Shown: one piece after another, positions 3,860 through 24,608 of the stretch
Numbering within the stretch: the first letter of the stretch is position 1
How the letters are laid out: each line of letters begins with the position of its first letter
IMG/VR virus record: IMGVR_UViG_3300003876_000022
Span: 1-25,483 of that record
DNA length: 25,483 bases
Reading direction: 5' to 3' (one strand)
Source of the DNA: a virus
The notes under the pieces: model-generated
What the model was told of the DNA's origin: nothing
The model's database searches: none
What the model saw: the letters and a program-made list of their open reading frames with translations, nothing else
Translations under genes and position numbers: made by a program

Positions 3860-4432
3860 ATGCCTTTTAATTCAGAAGAAATCGCAGAGGCGGGTATTGT
3901 CGGTTTAGATTATTACATGCGTAATAACCCGATCGACCAAGTAGCTCAAGAGCGCCCGTTTTTAGCAAAAATGCAAGCCGGGAAAAAATCATTCCCCGGT
4001 GCCAAGCAGTACGTGGTTGAACAGATCCGTACACAATATCAATCAAACTTTCAATGGTTCAACGGTGCATCGACTGTAACGTATAACAAGCGTAAAACAG
4101 TTAAGCAGGCAAATTTCCCTTGGCGCTCCGCCCATGATGGCTTTGCGCTTGATGAGGATCGCCTGGCTCAAAATGGAATCACCATTATTGAGGGCAAAAC
4201 TAAAACCGCATCCGAGGCCGAGGCCATTCAGTTAACAAACTTGCTCGAAGAGCAAACCGAAGTTTTACGCTTGGGCTACGAGGAAAAGTTTAACGAAGAA
4301 ATCCTCAAAGACGGCACAACTAGTTCGGATACGATTGAAGGCCTGGACAAGTTAATTGCTGTTGACCCCACATCTGACACGGTCGGTGGCATTGATGCTT
4401 CGACTGATACTTATTGGCGCAAATTGCATTAA
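3860..4432 (+). CDS. major capsid protein, N-terminal fragment (frame broken)
   Basis: 190 residues starting MPFNSEEIAEAGIVGLDYYMRN. The pattern NPIDQVAQERPFLAKMQAGKKSFPGAKQYVVEQIR matches the N-arm and early E-loop of podovirus HK97-fold coat proteins, and SAHDGFALDEDRLAQNGI resembles the E-loop/spine boundary. The strongest Shine-Dalgarno in the window precedes it, fitting the most abundant virion protein. The last residues GGIDASTDTYWRKLH stop at TAA, whereas such proteins normally continue from a WRN-like motif for about 150 residues. The remainder lies downstream in the +1 frame, apparently with an internal segment missing. Confidence 0.78.
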   Translation: MPFNSEEIAEAGIVGLDYYMRNNPIDQVAQERPFLAKMQAGKKSFPGAKQYVVEQIRTQYQSNFQWFNGASTVTYNKRKTVKQANFPWRSAHDGFALDEDRLAQNGITIIEGKTKTASEAEAIQLTNLLEEQTEVLRLGYEEKFNEEILKDGTTSSDTIEGLDKLIAVDPTSDTVGGIDASTDTYWRKLH

Positions 4433-4433
4433 C

Positions 4434-4919
4434 ATGGGTTCAGATGCCGTTGATGGTCTTAGAAACTTCATGCTTAATACTTATGGCCGTGTTAACTGGG
4501 GTCACATGGATCAGAAAACGGTTGAAGCCGGTTCCGGGCATGATTCTGGAACCAATACCGGTATGACGTTTCATGGTGTTCAAATACACTGGGATCCTAC
4601 CTTTGCTGATTTAGGCAGTACCTGGGAAAAACGCATGTATTTCATCAACTCGAAGCACTTAAAGCTTCGCCCTTTGAGTGGTCATGACATGATTACTCGC
4701 AAACCTCCACGCGCTTACGATAAGTACCAGTACTACTGGGGCTTAACTTGGCGCGGTGCGATGTGCACTATGTCGTTTGTCCGTGGCAGAGCAAGGGGAG
4801 CGCCACCGCTTAACGGACTTTATATCTTAATTGGCGTATATCGGAGAAAAAGCAATGTTCAAAACACAAAAAGTAAAAATTTTAATTGTAAAAGACATGA
4901 CAACAAAGCTGGGTATTGA
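4434..4919 (+). CDS. major capsid protein, C-terminal fragment (+1 frame)
   Basis: This continues the coat protein: GSDAVDGLRNFMLNTYGRVNWG, then GMTFHGVQIHWDPTFADLG, then KRMYFINSKHLKLRPLSGHDM and YYWGLTWRGAMCT. The block YFINSKHLKL...W/YxWGLTWRGAM is the usual end of this capsid family (P-domain and A-domain strands). No ribosome site precedes ATG 4434, so this is not an independent gene. The frame runs to 4919 and overlaps the next gene by 65 nt, but the roughly 45 residues after WRGAMCT do not look like capsid sequence, so a further frame change near 4765 is likely and the true stop is probably before 4843. A possible hairpin (GTGGC with GCCAC) lies at about 4774-4806. Confidence 0.68.
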   Translation: MGSDAVDGLRNFMLNTYGRVNWGHMDQKTVEAGSGHDSGTNTGMTFHGVQIHWDPTFADLGSTWEKRMYFINSKHLKLRPLSGHDMITRKPPRAYDKYQYYWGLTWRGAMCTMSFVRGRARGAPPLNGLYILIGVYRRKSNVQNTKSKNFNCKRHDNKAGY

Positions 4920-5397
4920 AGCTTTGGCGCATGAAATTCCCATTTATGAAGAGGCGCACCCAGAAGGGACGGTGCAGCTTTTGTCAAAGGGTGAAGTAAT
5001 TGAAATGGATGCGGGCGAAGAGTTCGAAGAATTAATGCACAAATTCGGCCAGCATGAAGAGTCAGGCGTGCCATTGGCGGAGCACATTTATGGTCGCGGT
5101 GGTCATCAGTTAGAAAATAATGATTTCTCAATAAAAAGCGATGTTATCGCAGCGGATGAAATCGCGCCAGAGTTTGAGGCGGATACGCCTGATTTGTCGC
5201 TGGATGACATGCGCGAGTACCTTAGCAAGCTGGGTGTTGAATACAAGTCAAGAATGAATGGCGGCACACTCAAGGCGCTTATTGAAACAGCAACCGGCGA
5301 AATGGTTAAAAAGCTTGAGGATTTGGGGCTTTACATCCCTGATGACCCGCTTGCTATGAAAGCTATTCTTGATTCGGTGGACGATAAGGCTGCGTAA
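4855..5397 (+). CDS. conserved virion-region protein, possible capsid-associated or SAP-like domain
   Basis: 180 residues when started at ATG 4855, which has GGAG at 4843-4846; an upstream in-frame ATG at 4831 lacks a site and lies inside the capsid reading frame. The N-terminal part (FKTQKVKILIVKDMTTKLGIEALAHEIPIYEEAHPEGTVQ) looks like a small beta domain. Residues about 115-150 (DLSLDDMREYLSKLGVEYKSRMNGGTLKALIE) resemble a SAP- or HeH-like helix-extended-helix found in phage head proteins. The protein is very acidic and lies between capsid and adaptor genes, where podoviruses often encode a head-completion or capsid accessory protein. The exact role is unknown. Confidence 0.6.
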   Translation: MFKTQKVKILIVKDMTTKLGIEALAHEIPIYEEAHPEGTVQLLSKGEVIEMDAGEEFEELMHKFGQHEESGVPLAEHIYGRGGHQLENNDFSIKSDVIAADEIAPEFEADTPDLSLDDMREYLSKLGVEYKSRMNGGTLKALIETATGEMVKKLEDLGLYIPDDPLAMKAILDSVDDKAA

Positions 5398-5399
5398 CC

Positions 5400-5621
5400 A
5401 TGAAGCCGATATTCAAAACAAAAGGCGATTTGAGAAGCACGCTTTTAACCCGCTTAGGTTATGGCGGGCTAGGGGCGAGTGCTGGCAATTATGTCAGCAT
5501 GGCGAATGATCTGTTAGATGAGGCGCAAGAAGAAATTTTTGACGTTTTGCCTAATCGTTATCGAGTTCAAGATTTTGCAGGTTCGCGTTTTTTATGCAGG
5601 CTATTGGTTTCCCTTGAATGA
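5400..5621 (+). CDS. head-tail adaptor protein, N-terminal fragment (frame broken)
   Basis: 73 residues, of which the first about 60 look genuine: FKTKGDLRSTLLTRLGYGGLGASAGN and ANDLLDEAQEEIFDVL. The motif of a small N-terminal helix followed by xLxEAQEExF resembles podovirus adaptor proteins (P22 gp4-like or related) that attach beneath the portal. It begins 2 nt after the previous stop with no strong ribosome site, suggesting translational coupling. The tail end SRFLCRLLVSLE is out-of-frame sequence; the real continuation is in the +1 frame. Confidence 0.6.
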   Translation: MKPIFKTKGDLRSTLLTRLGYGGLGASAGNYVSMANDLLDEAQEEIFDVLPNRYRVQDFAGSRFLCRLLVSLE

Positions 5622-6006
5622 GGGCATTGATTACGCACATGATTCGGTTTCTGATACAACTTCTTATCCACAGCGTTACTCAATAAGCTTTAATCCTGAC
5701 ACAGATAAGGCTCAAATTGAATTCTGGCCTGATACGGATGCGATATACCCGATTAGAGTGGTGTCGGAGCTTTTGCTTGATCCGTTTGTCAGTGATGGTG
5801 ATTTTTGTTCCATTGATTACAGATTACTGCTAATGCACGCAGAAGCCTGGGGTAAGTCACACCTTAATAAACCGGACAAAAACGATGCCATGCGCAAATG
5901 GAATTTACGGTTAAGAAAGCTTAAGGCTGCGCAGCATAAAGACAAAAAATATGTTCGTGGTGATAATAAGCACCATGAAGTTTTAGCAAAACCAATTTTA
6001 GTTTAA
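5581..6006 (+). CDS. head-tail adaptor protein, C-terminal fragment (+1 frame)
   Basis: This carries VFYAGYWFPLNEGIDYAHDS, then SYPQRYSI, IEFWPDTD, and VVSELLLDPFVSDGD. The sequence W-x-PL-x-x-GID followed by PQRY and later IxxWP is typical of the beta half of podovirus adaptor proteins. Basic C-terminus KLKAAQHKDKKYVRGDNKHHEV. The frame is open from 5518, but upstream of about 5581 it is a shadow of the preceding fragment. The expected strand-turn region between the two halves seems short by a few tens of residues. Direct repeats GCAGG near 5577 and 5597 flank the break and could have promoted a deletion. Confidence 0.6.
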   Translation, partial: VRVFYAGYWFPLNEGIDYAHDSVSDTTSYPQRYSISFNPDTDKAQIEFWPDTDAIYPIRVVSELLLDPFVSDGDFCSIDYRLLLMHAEAWGKSHLNKPDKNDAMRKWNLRLRKLKAAQHKDKKYVRGDNKHHEVLAKPILV

Positions 6007-6018
6007 GAGGAAAAGACC

Positions 6019-6252
6019 ATGGATGTAATAGACACGCCGGTTGCGTTCGGCCCAATTTATGAAGATGCAACATACAAATATTTTGCAGAAGCAGTGCCGG
6101 GGTCAAGCTTATCTGCCGCAGTATGGCGGGTTAGTAGAATGGTCATAGCCACTACTCAGATTCAATGGGCAAATGTTGGGGATGGAAATGTTCCAGGCTT
6201 CAATAACGTGTTTACCAATCTGGCGGCGGCTGCCGCCCTAACTTATTCATAA
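6019..6252 (+). CDS. small connector/neck protein
   Basis: 77 residues with VPGSSLSAAVWRVSRMVIATTQIQWANVGDGN...FNNVF. The pattern A-x-PGSSLSxxxWRIxR followed by a WA-x-G...F turn is common in small proteins between adaptor and tail genes of podoviruses and siphoviruses. Ribosome site AGAGGA at 6006-6011, start ATG 6019. It probably joins the neck or tail assembly; no enzyme motif is visible. The 15 nt GAGGAAAAGACCATG before and at the start recur exactly at the tail fibre gene (18167-18181). Confidence 0.6.
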   Translation: MDVIDTPVAFGPIYEDATYKYFAEAVPGSSLSAAVWRVSRMVIATTQIQWANVGDGNVPGFNNVFTNLAAAAALTYS

Positions 6253-6263
6253 GGGGTTATTTG

Positions 6264-8159
6264 ATGGGTTTATCAAAGCATATAATCGAGCATGAAAAAT
6301 TAGGGTTTGCAGGGTCATCATCCAGCGCATCGCCCGAGCTTCTTTTTGGTCAGGTGTTAGTCGGCAGCTCAAATGGGAACAGAATATTCGCGTTCCTCGC
6401 AGATGGTTCAGATGAGATAGCAACGTTTACTTTGCTATGGGATTACGTCAAAGCTGAGCTTGTCGCAGGCAGAGATGCTGTAGTTAAATTCGGTATCGGA
6501 AAATTCGGCATGGACGGCAACGGGTTTAATTTAACGTTTGAAAGAGGCTCTACCGTAACTATATTAGGTTCAGGTAAACCAACAGAAATTGGCTTTGTTG
6601 GCAACACCCCCCTGGGTGGCAACAAGGCCTTATTTGATATTAAAACAAATTTCAACGATACAAACATTGTTACCGGAACTGTTGGTGCTCACAACGCTAC
6701 TGTAGGGTCGAGAATACGCGCCTATCAGATCGGCAATGCAGCCAGTGGGGATGTACCTAAAAACGGCATAACACCAATTGACGGCGAGCATTTGGTAACA
6801 GCAATTACCGCAACGACAGTTACTTATGTTGCAAAGGTGCCTGTAACAGTTGCGTTAGGCGTAGCCCCTCAAATCTCAATCTTCAACAATTATTTAAAAG
6901 GCTTGGAGATTGGCAACTTTATGCTTTTTGACGACAACCCAGCCGCGCACGTTAATGGCGGGGAAGAGTCGCACGGCATGTTTATCACCAGCGTTATAAA
7001 CCCTCATGTTCATGATATTTGGAGTAGAGGAATTGGGGACGAAGCGGTAGAGCTTATTCGATGTGAAGGTTATAACGTTAAAAATATAATCGGCGTTAAT
7101 TCCCCCTCCGTGCAAACAGGCGGCGGTGGTTTGTGCTCAATTAAAAACGGGTGCTGGAATGGTGTAGTAGACACAGTGATGTCTCGTGAGCCATTTTCTG
7201 AACTTGAGACAACTTTGACCTCGTGTCTTTCACTAAAAACCGCAGGGAACGCGCTTGATATGGGCGGGATGGTTGCAAGAAACATTATTGGTAACTACCC
7301 TGAAAATTCAACGATAAATTTCGGTACCGCCGGAGCAAGAATAACGAATATTTCGATACATGGTGTTATTGCTACAGGTGGCGAGATAGGCGTTTCTGCC
7401 AGTGGTTCTTTCTTATTGTCAGAAGTTGACATTTATGATTTGAAGGCAAATCAGCAAACAGAAAGACCCGTTCAGTTTGCTGCAGGTGCTGCTGCTTACA
7501 AGGGCATAAGACTACATAATCCACAACTTGATGGCTCTCATTTGGCAAGCACAGATAAAGAGCTAATAAGAATGAACGGGAATGATAACAGGCTGTTTAA
7601 TCCTACGCTTTCCAACGCCTTATCAGCTTTCTTTAAAAATGGTGGCACAGGCATGAGAATAATCGGGGGCACTGTTGATAATTGTGGAGGTTCCGGCAAT
7701 GGTGGCATCATAATGCGAGACACAGGATCACAGGATACGGTGGTTGACGGGACTATTTTTACCAATATTAAATCAACTACTGCTGGATTTAATGGAATTG
7801 AAAAAATCATTAACTGCCCAGAAATAAACTTCACATCAATTCCATTTGCTGATACTGCATTAAACATTGTTAATTTTTCTGGTAACTCTAAGGTAAATAT
7901 GCCGATAAAGATGGATAAGCCCAATGGAAGAGCCGAAAATAATGAGTTCACAAGAACCACGACAGAAGGTTTAGCTGGAATGATTTTATTAAGTGCAAGC
8001 AATATACTTTGTACTGGAAACACTGCGCCTAACCTGGTTACGGGTGGCGGGATAGCAGAAGCTGTTGGTGTCGATAGAAACATTATCAAAAATAACAACA
8101 TGAACAGCGCAGGCGTAACGACCGTCGGAGCTTCAACTATTGCAGCGGATAATTTGTAG
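6264..8159 (+). CDS. tail spike, right-handed beta-helix
   Basis: 631 residues from ATG 6264, which has AAGGGGTT at 6251-6258; the TTG at 6261 is less likely. The N-terminal about 40 residues would attach to the virion. Residues about 190-560 are rich in short strands with Asn/Gly turns (VHDIWSRGIGDEAVELIRCEGYNVKNIIGVNSPS, NGGIIMRDTGSQDTVVDGTIFTNI) typical of a parallel beta-helix, as in P22-type tailspikes and pectate-lyase-like depolymerases. It would recognise or cut surface polysaccharide. I see no clear catalytic Asp/Glu pair, so enzyme activity is not assigned. Located between neck and nozzle genes. Confidence 0.75.
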   Translation: MGLSKHIIEHEKLGFAGSSSSASPELLFGQVLVGSSNGNRIFAFLADGSDEIATFTLLWDYVKAELVAGRDAVVKFGIGKFGMDGNGFNLTFERGSTVTILGSGKPTEIGFVGNTPLGGNKALFDIKTNFNDTNIVTGTVGAHNATVGSRIRAYQIGNAASGDVPKNGITPIDGEHLVTAITATTVTYVAKVPVTVALGVAPQISIFNNYLKGLEIGNFMLFDDNPAAHVNGGEESHGMFITSVINPHVHDIWSRGIGDEAVELIRCEGYNVKNIIGVNSPSVQTGGGGLCSIKNGCWNGVVDTVMSREPFSELETTLTSCLSLKTAGNALDMGGMVARNIIGNYPENSTINFGTAGARITNISIHGVIATGGEIGVSASGSFLLSEVDIYDLKANQQTERPVQFAAGAAAYKGIRLHNPQLDGSHLASTDKELIRMNGNDNRLFNPTLSNALSAFFKNGGTGMRIIGGTVDNCGGSGNGGIIMRDTGSQDTVVDGTIFTNIKSTTAGFNGIEKIINCPEINFTSIPFADTALNIVNFSGNSKVNMPIKMDKPNGRAENNEFTRTTTEGLAGMILLSASNILCTGNTAPNLVTGGGIAEAVGVDRNIIKNNNMNSAGVTTVGASTIAADNL

Positions 8160-10520: not shown

Positions 10521-11204
10521 ATGAGCTTACTAGCTGCGATAGGAATTAAATTAGCCGGTGACTATTTGTCCAATCGGTCGGAAAATGGAGCGTTAGACGA
10601 TCAGAAAGCGGCGGCTAAACGCGGTCGAACTCGACAAAACGAATTAAATTCTCGCGGTCGAAAAGAAATCACAGACAGACTGGATGATTTTGATCCTGCA
10701 AAGCAAGAAGGTGAATTCAATGCGTCGGCAAGCAAATATACAGACCAAATAATAAATGAGCTGAGTAAGTCTAATGAAAATTATCAGGAAACTGTTGACG
10801 GTGCCGTGGGAAGAAACAAGCAATCATATCTCGACTTGGCAAAGTATTTATCTGATGAAAGAATGAAAGACTCATCAGAAAAAGCCTCTATTGCCGGTCG
10901 ATTAAATGCGCCTAATGATATTCGATTTAACGACCGTGATGCGTATTCTGACATAAATAGTGAACAGACTTATATTAATTACCTGAAAAGATTGTACGCA
11001 TCAACTGACCAAACCAGACTTAATTCTGTTAGACCGGATAAAAGGCAGGCGTTTCTTGGCGGGCTATTATCTAGCGCTGGGCAAGCTTGGGCAGGCAATT
11101 CATTGGGCGGCGGCGCTGGATTAGACTATGCAACGAATGGCACTGATTCATTTTCGCCCACATCGGCTGGGAGCTTTGATAGTGCGGGGAGTCGACTTTC
11201 ATGA
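10521..11204 (+). CDS. putative internal virion/ejection protein
   Basis: 227 residues. Short hydrophobic start LLAAIGIKLAGDYLSN, then long charged helices (DDQKAAAKRGRTRQNELNSRGRKEITDRLDDFDP, ELSKSNENYQETVDGAVGRNKQSYLDLAKYLSDER) and a Gly/Ser/Ala-rich C-terminus (GLLSSAGQAWAGNSLGGGAG). This composition is like the T7 gp14-type ejection proteins, which insert in the outer membrane. Ribosome site AAGGA at 10510-10514. It overlaps the next gene as ATGA. The family is not certain. Confidence 0.55.
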   Translation: MSLLAAIGIKLAGDYLSNRSENGALDDQKAAAKRGRTRQNELNSRGRKEITDRLDDFDPAKQEGEFNASASKYTDQIINELSKSNENYQETVDGAVGRNKQSYLDLAKYLSDERMKDSSEKASIAGRLNAPNDIRFNDRDAYSDINSEQTYINYLKRLYASTDQTRLNSVRPDKRQAFLGGLLSSAGQAWAGNSLGGGAGLDYATNGTDSFSPTSAGSFDSAGSRLS

Positions 11205-19833: not shown

Positions 19834-20066
19834 TGTCACCAGAACAGATAAAGCTGGCAGTTAAAGAGGCCATAGAAGAAAGCTCATTTATGAGCAATGA
19901 AGAGCATCGTAAACAGCATGAAGTATTTACTCGATGGATTGAACGCGATAACAGGCGAAAAGAGTTAATACAAACGGCTAAAAAATCCTTTGTTGGGGCG
20001 TTTACGATTGCTATTTTTGGCTGGCTTTCTGGGCTAGGGGAAGTAGTTATGGCGGCCTTTAAATAG
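19833..20066 (+). CDS. small membrane protein at the end of the tail operon
   Basis: 77 residues: a charged helical N-terminus (EQIKLAVKEAIEESSFMSNEEHRKQHEVFTRWIERDNRRKELI) and one hydrophobic segment SFVGAFTIAIFGWLSGLGEVVMAAF at about residues 52-76. TAATG overlap with the fibre tip gene indicates coupling. The gene ends 8 nt inside a convergent - strand gene. Similar proteins accompany lysis or tail fibre genes in many phages, where they may be accessory holins or membrane anchors; the role here is unproved. Confidence 0.55.
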   Translation: MSPEQIKLAVKEAIEESSFMSNEEHRKQHEVFTRWIERDNRRKELIQTAKKSFVGAFTIAIFGWLSGLGEVVMAAFK

Positions 20067-20321: not shown

Positions 20322-20340
20322 CTTAGCTGTTATGTTTTAA
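20322..20340 (-). repeat. 19-nt repeat copy A at a stop codon
   Basis: The plus-strand string cttagctgttatgttttaa is identical at 20322-20340 and 21314-21332. Both copies overlap the stop codon of a - strand gene (ACATAA on that strand). A shorter version lies at 21076-21088 and a diverged one at 21727-21740. See findings for the attC-like interpretation. Confidence 0.8.
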
Positions 20341-21075: not shown

Positions 21076-21088
21076 CTTAACTGTTATG
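21076..21088 (-). repeat. short repeat copy C at a stop codon
   Basis: cttaactgttatg on the plus strand differs by one base from the start of the 19-nt repeat. It again covers the stop codon of a - strand gene (GCATAA). The copy is short, so it is only a candidate. Confidence 0.45.
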
Positions 21089-21244
21089 CTGCATGAATAG
21101 TAATCTTCCGCTGCCCTTCTGTCCCTTTAATATTTATTGTCTTTTGCCCATCACCTTCACCGCTTCTTATTTCGCAATAAGCGACATTAATCCCAACAAA
21201 AAGGCCTGTAATGTGAACTCATGCTCAAGCTCGTCTTGCGTCAT
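21084..21244 (-). pseudogene. broken small gene (frame change)
   Basis: ATG 21244, with AAGGATA upstream, starts MTQDELEHEFTLQA and stops by TAA at 21167-21169. A second frame from about 21208 to the stop at 21084-21086 reads GLFVGINVAYCEIR then SGEGDGQKTINIKGTEGQRKITIHAA, which looks like coding sequence of a normal small protein. The two probably formed one gene with a frame change near the T5 run at about 21200-21206. I do not recognise the family. The start of the second part is unsupported by a ribosome site. The stop overlaps repeat copy C. Confidence 0.35.
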
Positions 21245-21313
21245 AATTTAATATCCTTACCCTAAATAGCAGGGCGTTCAAATGGATTGCGCAAAAGGCG
21301 CGCAACCCTTTAA

Positions 21314-21332
21314 CTTAGCTGTTATGTTTTAA
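21314..21332 (-). repeat. 19-nt repeat copy B at a stop codon
   Basis: Identical to copy A at 20322-20340. It overlaps the stop of the gene at 21322-21651. Downstream, on the - strand, a hairpin-forming run follows: TTGCGC at 21300-21305 pairs with GCGCAA at 21287-21292 around a 7-nt loop, flanked by GTTAAAGGG / TCCATTTGAAC pairs with single unpaired bases. It resembles an attC-like arrangement without a good outer core. Confidence 0.7.
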
Positions 21333-21651
21333 ATGTTCCAGTTACCCATTTTTTCAATCGCCACCCAACGCTTGTTTTATTCCATCCCGTGACTATTATT
21401 TTAATATTGTTATTATAGGGTACGTCGCTATTTTTATTTAATTCCGTTAATTCGCTTTTTATTTTCAGCTCAATAATATTTCCGTTTATATAATCAGAGT
21501 TAACAGAAACATTCATTCTTCCGTTTGTTTTTTTACCTTCAGTGGTTGCGGTATAAAAAACATCAAAACTTGTATATTTTTCATATAAAAATAAATTTAT
21601 TGCCAATGAAGCCATTAATCCCCAAATAACAATTGGCGGTATATCTATCAT
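21322..21651 (-). CDS. small membrane-anchored hypothetical protein
   Basis: 109 residues with an N-terminal hydrophobic segment PPIVIWGLMASLAINLFLY and an otherwise soluble beta-rich part (FDVFYTATTEGKKTNGRMNVSVNSDYIN). Likely an inner-membrane protein with an external domain. GGAG at 21661 to 21658 precedes ATG 21651. Not recognised. Lies in the lysis/accessory cluster between a holin and the attC-like site at 21669-21738, so a lysis-timing or superinfection role is possible but unproved. Confidence 0.55.
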   Translation of the reverse strand: MIDIPPIVIWGLMASLAINLFLYEKYTSFDVFYTATTEGKKTNGRMNVSVNSDYINGNIIELKIKSELTELNKNSDVPYNNNIKIIVTGWNKTSVGWRLKKWVTGTFKT

Positions 21652-21668
21652 TTTATTTCTCCAAAATC

Positions 21669-21738
21669 ATATAACAAGTAAATTAACGTGGGCCACCCGC
21701 CGCTACGCCATGGATTCCCAGTTATTAAAGCGTTATGT
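21669..21738 (-). repeat. attC-like imperfect palindrome
   Basis: On the - strand, ACATAAC (21738-21732) and GTTATAT (21675-21669) lie at the two ends and are inverted with 6 of 7 positions complementary. Inside are six-nt spacers, then TAACTGGG and CCCACGTTA, which pair with one unpaired base, around a GC-rich centre. Integron attC sites have this arrangement: outer 7-nt cores, inner boxes with extrahelical bases, and a folded centre. The left end overlaps the stop codon of the upstream micro-gene, as attC sites typically do. No integrase is in view, so the identity is uncertain. Confidence 0.4.
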
Positions 21739-21888
21739 TAATAAGTCTCTAGCTTTGCAATATGGCTTTAATGCGCTTTCGATTGATTTGATTCTTTCAT
21801 CAGCTTCTCTGCCTGCTAGTTCGGCTAACCCATAAGCGCCCATCCCACAATCTTTTGTAATCTCTTTAAATTTTTTTTCATAAGTCAT
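21733..21888 (-). CDS. 51-residue hypothetical protein
   Basis: MTYEKKFKEITKDC... then GMGAYGLAELAGREADERI and KSIESALKPYCKARDLLT. Two short helices separated by a Gly-rich turn, with two Cys. Ribosome site GGAG lies at 21898-21895 and the ATG begins 1 nt after the stop of the upstream micro-gene, so the two are coupled. Family unknown. Its stop overlaps the attC-like end. Confidence 0.55.
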   Translation of the reverse strand: MTYEKKFKEITKDCGMGAYGLAELAGREADERIKSIESALKPYCKARDLLT

Positions 21889-21889
21889 C

Positions 21890-22032
21890 TTAATCTCCAA
21901 AATTATCAATTACACCTAATGCCCTGCTTTGATGCTCTTCTTCCATACGTGTGCATTTCTCAATGTCGCATAGGTTGTGCCAGCTACTTTTTTCACGCAG
22001 AAAATGCTTGCGGCAAATTCTTTGCTAATCAT
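21890..22032 (-). pseudogene. broken Cys-rich micro-gene
   Basis: ATG 22032 (close to a GAAGAG site) opens MISKEFAASIF and ends at TAG near 21916. The more protein-like reading is another frame: ICRKHFLREKSSWHNLCDIEK then CTRMEEEHQSRALGVIDNFGD, with the stop at 21890-21892, one base before the next ATG. This frame has a stop (TAG at 22025-22027) just upstream of it and no clear start. The pattern C-x2-H...C-x4-C suggests a small zinc-binding protein. Probably one gene with a frame change near 22015-22022. Confidence 0.4.
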
Positions 22033-23293: not shown

Positions 23294-23803
23294 TTACATG
23301 AATTTCTTGCTCATTGATTCAATTAATTTAGCCGGCGTTAATTCAGCTTTAAATAACTCAATCCAATTTGCTTTATTTGCTTCAATATCACTATCTAAAT
23401 ACAAAGGCAATTCGATAGCTAACGGCTGGATAGTGTAGGTTGTAACTTTATGTTTTGATGATCTTAATGGGATTTCACGTTTAGCCGCAATGCCGGTTAC
23501 ATGCGATACTCTAATGCCACCTGTCGGCACTCCTCCCCACATTACTTCCATATCGCAGTATAAAGTCATACTTTGTCCTACCCAGTTGACACTGTAAGTT
23601 CCCCACACTATAGCTAATAACCGGCGCATAGTTTTGCATGGCTTGTATGGCTGACGGCCTTCTCCAATGCTAATAATTACCGGCTGATCTGCGCCCTTGT
23701 TAACTGTTATTGCTAAGACCTTAACCGTTAAACCACCGCCGACTAAATCGGCTGCATTTAATTGGTCGCTCTTTGCAATTAGCGTTTCTGAAATATCATC
23801 CAT
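23294..23803 (-). CDS. recombination-module protein next to YqaJ
   Basis: 169 residues. LTVKVLAITVNKGADQPVIISIGEGRQPYKPCKTMRRLLAIVWG, then WVGQSMTLYCDMEVMWGGVPTGGIRVSHVTGI. The block QPYKPCKTMRRLL...W...WVGQSMTLYCDPEV-x-x-GG-x-x-x-GGIR(V/I)SH is a recurring phage family found beside exonuclease and ssDNA-annealing genes; the beta-rich start is OB-like. It likely binds ssDNA or helps recombination, but this is inference from context. Start overlaps the YqaJ stop as TAATG. Confidence 0.6.
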   Translation of the reverse strand: MDDISETLIAKSDQLNAADLVGGGLTVKVLAITVNKGADQPVIISIGEGRQPYKPCKTMRRLLAIVWGTYSVNWVGQSMTLYCDMEVMWGGVPTGGIRVSHVTGIAAKREIPLRSSKHKVTTYTIQPLAIELPLYLDSDIEANKANWIELFKAELTPAKLIESMSKKFM

Positions 23804-24495
23804 TAAATTATCTCCGGTTCAACGTCATATAATTCGTTAAGTGCAAAAATTGATTGCTCGCATATCTCATAAACCGCGTCACTATATCGGTCTTTAGCAA
23901 GTTCAATAAATTCGTCGATTTCTTCAATTCCTTTCATTACAGATGATTCTAATTTTTTAATAATTTCGTCATCACGGTATTGGGTAATTATGTGAATAGG
24001 CTTCTCGCCAAACTGCGGGCAGAATGAAACATAATCCCATTTGTTAACGCCAAACACCCACATACAGCCCTGCATTTGAGGCACATACTCTTTAGGCGCT
24101 TCGCCTGCTGCAATCGTTCGCATATGTGCTTTAGGATTAGGGCATTTAATTTCAACACCACCGTCTTTAATTAATCCATCAGGGCTGGCTGCAACTCGCA
24201 TATCTTTGTTTAAATAACCTATCCCTACCTCTTCAACAATCACGCCTTTAATCTCTTCATAGACGCGCCTTGCATAGCTTTCAAGTAGATTGCCTCGCGC
24301 AATATCAATTGTATTAATATTTCCAATCAATACGCCGGATGCCATTTCACTTGCCACATCTAGCAGGTAGTTTCTACGTGTTACGCCATTTCCTGCCGTC
24401 AGCATGGCCTTAGCATTGCTCATTGTTATGCACCCTACACGAGCATTTTTCCATTCTTCTGTTCCTTGCTCTAACTTGCGTTTAATAATTGTCAT
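23803..24495 (-). CDS. YqaJ-type (lambda exonuclease family) recombinase nuclease
   Basis: 230 residues from ATG 24495 (a TTG at 24501 is less likely). EQGTEEWKNARVGCITMSNA, then ASPDGLIKDGGVEIKCPNPKAH (metal-binding Asp in SPDG and the E-x-K pair in GGVEIKCP) and EYVPQMQGCMWV (the QMQ helix). The catalytic D...ExK arrangement is intact. It would resect double-strand ends 5' to 3' to give 3' overhangs for annealing. Upstream coupling: the previous micro-gene ends in TGA that overlaps its ATG. This, with the downstream protein, forms the recombination core of the early operon. Confidence 0.85.
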   Translation of the reverse strand: MTIIKRKLEQGTEEWKNARVGCITMSNAKAMLTAGNGVTRRNYLLDVASEMASGVLIGNINTIDIARGNLLESYARRVYEEIKGVIVEEVGIGYLNKDMRVAASPDGLIKDGGVEIKCPNPKAHMRTIAAGEAPKEYVPQMQGCMWVFGVNKWDYVSFCPQFGEKPIHIITQYRDDEIIKKLESSVMKGIEEIDEFIELAKDRYSDAVYEICEQSIFALNELYDVEPEII

Positions 24496-24608
24496 ACCCA
24501 ATCCGCCCGAGTTCGCTTTTTAGTTAAGCCAATCAAGATACGTCGAATTAGTCCGGTGAATCCCGCTGGCTTGCGCTTGCGTTTTAGTAGGTCTGTGCCG
24601 AATATCAT
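24492..24608 (-). CDS. 38-residue basic micro-protein
   Basis: MIFGTDLLKRKRKPAGFTGL then IRRILIGLTKKRTRADWV. Arg/Lys-rich with an amphipathic helix (LIRRILIGLTKKRTR). It overlaps the upstream gene stop and the exonuclease start as ATGA on both sides, so it sits in a translation chain. A nucleic-acid-binding or membrane-active peptide is possible; no homolog is recognised. Confidence 0.5.
   Translation of the reverse strand: MIFGTDLLKRKRKPAGFTGLIRRILIGLTKKRTRADWV

Follow-up and report, generated by a model that had tools for sequence, protein, structure and literature searches.

An integrase-less pair of probable attC sites bounds an inverted gene in a tailed-phage contig

A 70-nt palindrome within a virus record raises the question of whether a tailed phage carries a recombination site of the integron type and, if so, which neighboring gene belongs to it. 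The record analyzed here in its entirety, hereafter the window, is 25,483 bp of a tailed phage whose head protein matched phrog_9953 in a profile search. Long ORFs lie on the plus strand up to approximately 20 kb, and a minus-strand run, which holds the palindrome, starts at 20059 and includes a YqaJ-type recombinase detected by profile search (23803-24501). No match to the integron integrase family TIGR02249 was found anywhere in the record, which may be a fragment. The contig seems to contain frameshift errors, as two of its genes look split: the reading of the head protein gene (3860-4919) seems to continue in another frame at approximately 4430, and the gene before the next-but-one to the head gene (660-2637) seems to switch frame at approximately 1430.

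The preliminary description had read the palindrome at 21669-21738 (site 2) as attC-like from its matching 7-nt ends, 6-nt spacers, inner boxes and folded center, and each of these elements is present exactly as claimed. Read on the minus strand, the site runs from ACATAAC through a 6-nt spacer and an inner box to the folded center, and then through an inner box with an extra base and another 6-nt spacer to GTTATAT. On the plus strand, it comprises R'' (ATATAAC), L'' with two unpaired bases, L', and R' (GTTATGT). The outer boxes are inverted 7-mers with AAC and GTT that pair at 7/7 positions, and each has one mismatch to the consensus RYYYAAC/GTTRRRY. The expected cut falls between 21732 and 21733 (G↓TT).

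We evaluated the site with covariance models that were built in-house and trained on sequences other than the window. Integron loci identified by integrase family TIGR02249 served as the source of attC. This family was present in 137 of the 369 genomes sampled from the class to which a genome titled Gammaproteobacteria belongs, and the array regions of the loci were extracted. After 8 sequences that appeared doubtful by eye and 10 others at alignment were removed from 51 deduplicated candidates, 33 attC remained to train the first model (R1). For the second model (R2), the training set consisted of the 150 best among 221 hits in bacterial integrons. With filters off, the two best R1 matches in the window were 21264-21327 (site 1; 16.7 bits) and site 2 (15.9 bits, E 0.034). 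R2 placed site 2 first (24.5 bits, E 5e-4) and site 1 next (19.9 bits, E 0.006), and its third-best match reached only 12.3 bits. Control phage DNA totaling 285,446 bases, searched with filters off, gave a maximum of 14.3 bits, which came from Polaribacter phage P12002L; the maxima for 11 loci of relatives and for T4 (50 kb) were 13.6 and 12.5 bits, respectively. Under R2 with filters off, both window sites score above this background. A covariance search had been proposed as the check on the palindrome, and the result, together with the second site on the same strand, supports the attC-like claim and confirms that the site at 21669-21738 is real. The 14.3-bit match in P12002L lies at 30005-30059 on the plus strand, flanked by two methyltransferase genes on the minus strand to which it is antisense; it is possibly a published attC of that phage.

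The filter setting affects how these searches can be read. With default filters, R2 returned three attC in TJE1 and four in PH101, two phages tested by Qi et al. (PMC9892861). A 30-kb stretch of MW202573 gave four strong attC, and 422 kb from 28 loci of relatives gave a single match, of 15.1 bits. Neither window site was returned at this setting, although their scores should have passed the limit. Because default filters lose the window's own sites, absence under those filters says little, and the comparison with filters off is the fair one.

That loss is one of several observations consistent with a palindrome that arose by chance or is an ordinary intergenic element, for example a terminator of transcription or a gene-end RNA hairpin. 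The single-strand fold of site 2 was no better than that of dinucleotide shuffles (z from -0.29 to 0.91); the bottom strand folded at -7.3 kcal/mol versus -4.4 kcal/mol for the top, but with a z of only -0.29, compared with -1.5 to -7.7 for five folded sites of PH101 and TJE1. An ungapped inverted-repeat search of the window did not list the palindrome. A hand-made box scan gave scores equal to that of site 2 in 15 of 100 shuffled windows, and for this reason we dropped it as proof of attC. Against this reading, the window has two adjacent same-strand matches with the R2 E values given above, compared with a maximum of 14.3 bits for 285 kb of control DNA at the same settings, and both sites have their unpaired bases on the same side. 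Furthermore, no terminator-like site was found at either palindrome and the window lacked any Rfam match, which led us to reject the terminator and RNA-family readings. Taken together, we consider a chance or ordinary palindrome improbable.

Site 1 is a partly decayed attC. Its R'' (AAATAGC) is degenerate and lacks AAC, its R' (GTTATGT) is intact, and the model alignments leave two unpaired bases on L''. The two sites are 341 bases apart on the plus strand. At least two attC close together and no integrase, the latter judged on a possibly fragmentary record, give the locus the composition of an attC cluster without integrase (CALIN).

Which strand corresponds to the attC top strand determines which gene the sites would mobilize. 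In known attC, the unpaired bases lie on the L'' side. Both window sites place them on plus-strand L'', which indicates that plus is the attC top strand. The preliminary description had in effect taken minus as the top strand and a 51-residue gene as the cassette gene. In favor of that polarity, the outer boxes are near-palindromic and the TAA of the 51-aa minus-strand ORF falls inside an outer box of site 2, as in integron cassettes. The reported overlap with the stop codon stands, but the box is R' rather than R'', and the gene sits outside the cassette that site 2 ends. Moreover, R1 and R2 both put both sites on plus, and in the box scan a minus-strand reading would need the unpaired bases on L'. 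We regard the minus-strand polarity as very improbable.

With plus as the top strand, the R' cuts of sites 1 and 2 bound a 411-bp cassette at 21322-21732, which we infer to be one exchange unit. Its gene, which encodes 109 aa (21322-21651, minus strand), is inverted with respect to the attC: the TAA starts at the R' cut of site 1, and the start adjoins the R'' box of site 2. A canonical cassette has its gene along the attC with the stop at R''; here, the gene runs opposite and stops in R'. The 51-residue gene extends to 58 aa if begun at TTG instead of ATG (21733-21909, minus strand; TAA in R' of site 2) and is probably a phage gene at the right edge of the cassette. Profile searches with the 109-aa protein gave no family above cut-off; searches of phage and plasmid records and of viral contigs gave no relatives, nor did a search of the 369 genomes, from which an empty answer carries little weight. 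No relative of the 51-aa protein was found in viral contigs. A single-sequence structure model of the 109-aa protein was poor (pLDDT 47).

The left side of site 1 offers a second potential unit. A possible cassette of 238 bp (21084-21321, plus strand) would extend from site 1 to a lone GTTATGC at 21083, and it contains a short minus-strand ORF that is apparently split across two frames. The lone R'-like motif at this left edge, CTTAACTGTTATGC (21076-21089, plus strand), is a candidate entry point or attC remnant. Another R'-like motif, CTTAGCTGTTATGT (20322-20335, plus strand), is found at the stop of a 68-aa minus-strand gene. The shared sequence CTTARCTGTTATGY has three copies in the window (20322-20335, 21076-21089 and 21314-21327), with 0.02 expected. 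Every copy is at the stop of a minus-strand ORF and only the one at 21314-21327 is within a recognizable attC, and the copies are candidates for attC remnants or insertion targets.

The inverted layout recurs in many other attC-bearing virus contigs. Virus loci were drawn using two attC-shaped patterns, and R2 then gave 260 hits with E ≤0.01 over the 79 loci that the second pattern newly added; an exact-motif scan of viral contigs gave no match. The best 150 of the 260 hits constitute the virus orientation set, and the 150 bacterial hits that trained R2 also serve as the bacterial orientation set. For layout, we relied on a strict stop test, which scores ORFs of at least 60 aa with a stop 5-6 nt inside a box. 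Among the bacterial sites, which come from loci picked for holding intI, the stop was in R'' only for 41, in R' only for 4 and in neither for 105. The corresponding numbers for viruses (n=146) were 18, 48 and 71, with 9 in both (Fisher 8e-12). A looser stop test gave 113 normal and 4 inverted sites for bacteria (n=150) and 39 and 72 for viruses (n=150). Likewise, the longest ORF between neighboring attC ran along the attC in 98 and against it in 11 of the bacterial intervals (n=111), versus 36 and 60 of the viral ones (n=103). Coding beside the attC was antisense at 33, same-sense at 7, mixed at 24 and undetermined at 1 of 65 virus loci; for 37 bacterial loci, these classes numbered 1, 22, 12 and 2. 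This flank test classes the window itself as mixed, and its longest-ORF labels are wrong for some loci, such as L201, which the stop test scores as inverted.

A bacterial set poor in intI comprised 30 attC from 7 of 21 genomes, with no intI match at 1e-80 and a weaker match possible; it resembled the other bacterial sites by the looser test, which scored 18 as normal, 1 as inverted, 3 as ambiguous and 8 as none, and the strict test was thin, at 6 to 3, with no clear-cut split. The interval and strict counts omit identical copies and L137, which is the PH101 record again. The strict count also omits L219 and L227, which belong to the sole intI carrier among 49 attC-bearing virus records, as judged from 50 of the attC-bearing loci; the layout is normal for 11 of 13 intervals in L219 and inverted for 2 of 2 in L227. 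Terminase family phrog_2 is present in 16 of the 49 records, which leaves some of the contigs unproven as phage. In deposited annotations, PH101 has 3/3 inverted CDS between its attC, with their stops outside R', and the searched part of MW202573 has 5/5, while both CDS in TJE1 have the normal layout (0/2 inverted). Another virus contig (L139), which carries genes for a primase and a terminase-small-like protein, has six attC hits on the minus strand at 4887-7520, between which the ORFs are mostly on the plus strand; one encodes an MT-A70 methyltransferase.

We also examined relatives of the window phage and their hosts. Among 15 relatives' records searched whole, 13 of them identified by the head protein and 2 by a 163-aa protein, accepted attC were present in G388 only, which has four with E ≤0.01. 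A match in G383 at 11037-11087 lacks outer boxes and was not counted. The inversion is not cleanly repeated in this nearest attC-bearing relative (loci L145/L146), for which the strict test showed two of the four sites with normal layout and one with stops on both sides; this result and that for PH101 come from a stop test covering 142 bacterial hits and 25 phage sites. In the same head-protein relative (record of L020), the attC lie at two separate places and in opposite directions. We found no relative with the gene order of the window and no empty site; in L022 and L023, different sequence adjoins the 163-aa gene. An integron integrase scored above the family cut-off in three of six genomes with head-protein relatives (G001, G002 and G004), which indicates that host integrons are at hand.

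Based on these findings, we propose that the window probably carries an integrase-less pair of attC-type sites in its minus-strand run, where host IntI would have inserted inverted cassettes between phage genes for the phage operon to read. If the sites work like other attC, the minus strand, as the bottom strand, would fold in single-stranded DNA and host IntI would bind its boxes; the 411-bp unit would then be excised or inserted by strand exchange at G↓TT. On the other strand, entry by a host integrase at G↓TT would correspond to TAA↓C, just past the stop of a phage gene, and the attC would thereby be antisense to phage transcription. Because the 109-aa gene is inverted relative to the attC, it could be read as part of the phage operon but not from an integron promoter, and selection could retain cassettes with inverted genes, as only those would be read. 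The involvement of host IntI, the point of entry at a stop codon, the action of selection and any present-day activity are inferred parts of this proposal. Strand placement in replication may be an alternative reason for the inversion; should replication proceed in the same direction as the genes, the recombinogenic strand of the attC would be on the lagging-strand template.

The same origin is compatible with the two sites being a decayed cassette remnant, which differs from our proposal over present activity: the integron-derived sites would no longer recombine and would persist only through their intergenic position. The degenerate R'' of site 1, the weak fold of site 2 and the failure to find relatives of the 109-aa or 51-aa protein are consistent with decay. 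In contrast, site 2 retains fully paired outer boxes, both inner boxes and the two unpaired bases. We judge the chance of such decay to fall slightly short of even.

Returning to the proposal of active sites, exchange with host integrons, which the preliminary description had raised, appears plausible because IntI1 recombined 5 of the 6 attC taken from other virulent phages in one report (PMC9892861). A broader possibility, for which we see the odds as balanced, is that phage cassettes form a virus-adapted inverted pool in which attC are antisense to the operon, genes run along the operon and stops are often in R'. The common view is that integrons orient their cassettes so that a single promoter reads them. 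A cassette of such an inverted pool would be silent under that promoter after transfer to a host integron. If viruses keep cassettes reversed, phages would be more than carriers of host cassettes: they would maintain a separate pool whose expression follows a logic of its own, and phage-host cassette flow could be tested by orientation alone.

Several known systems resemble the window in part. Single sites that are not attC, termed attG, can take cassette insertions. The lone R'-like motif at the left edge of the window resembles such insertion sites, which are named in PMC12901181; the differences are that entry at a stop codon in the phage is our proposal and that no empty site was seen. As described in another study (PMC11023631), IntI recombines attC as folded bottom strands, cassette direction is set by strand choice, and excision in V. 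cholerae rises when the bottom strand of an attC is on the lagging template. Chromosomal integrons of gammaproteobacteria share the attC anatomy, including the pair GTATAAC/GTTATGT in one of them (L070), but their stops are mostly at R'' and their genes run along the attC polarity, in loci that were chosen for intI. CALIN have already been published in phages (Qi 2023, PMC9892861). Searches of open PubMed Central text, which covers few subscription papers and no preprints, gave no earlier description of phage cassettes in the inverted layout. In the text of Qi et al. (PMC9892861), the words opposite, antisense and reverse are absent, and the cassettes of TJE1 and PH101 are described as same-direction and those of P12002L as divergent. 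The CALIN in that text resemble the window in having attC without intI and small genes of no assigned function between them, and one PH101 attC starts with ATATAACAAG, like the window site. Their phages differ from the window phage, and R2 finds the genes of PH101 and MW202573 to be inverted, as in the window.
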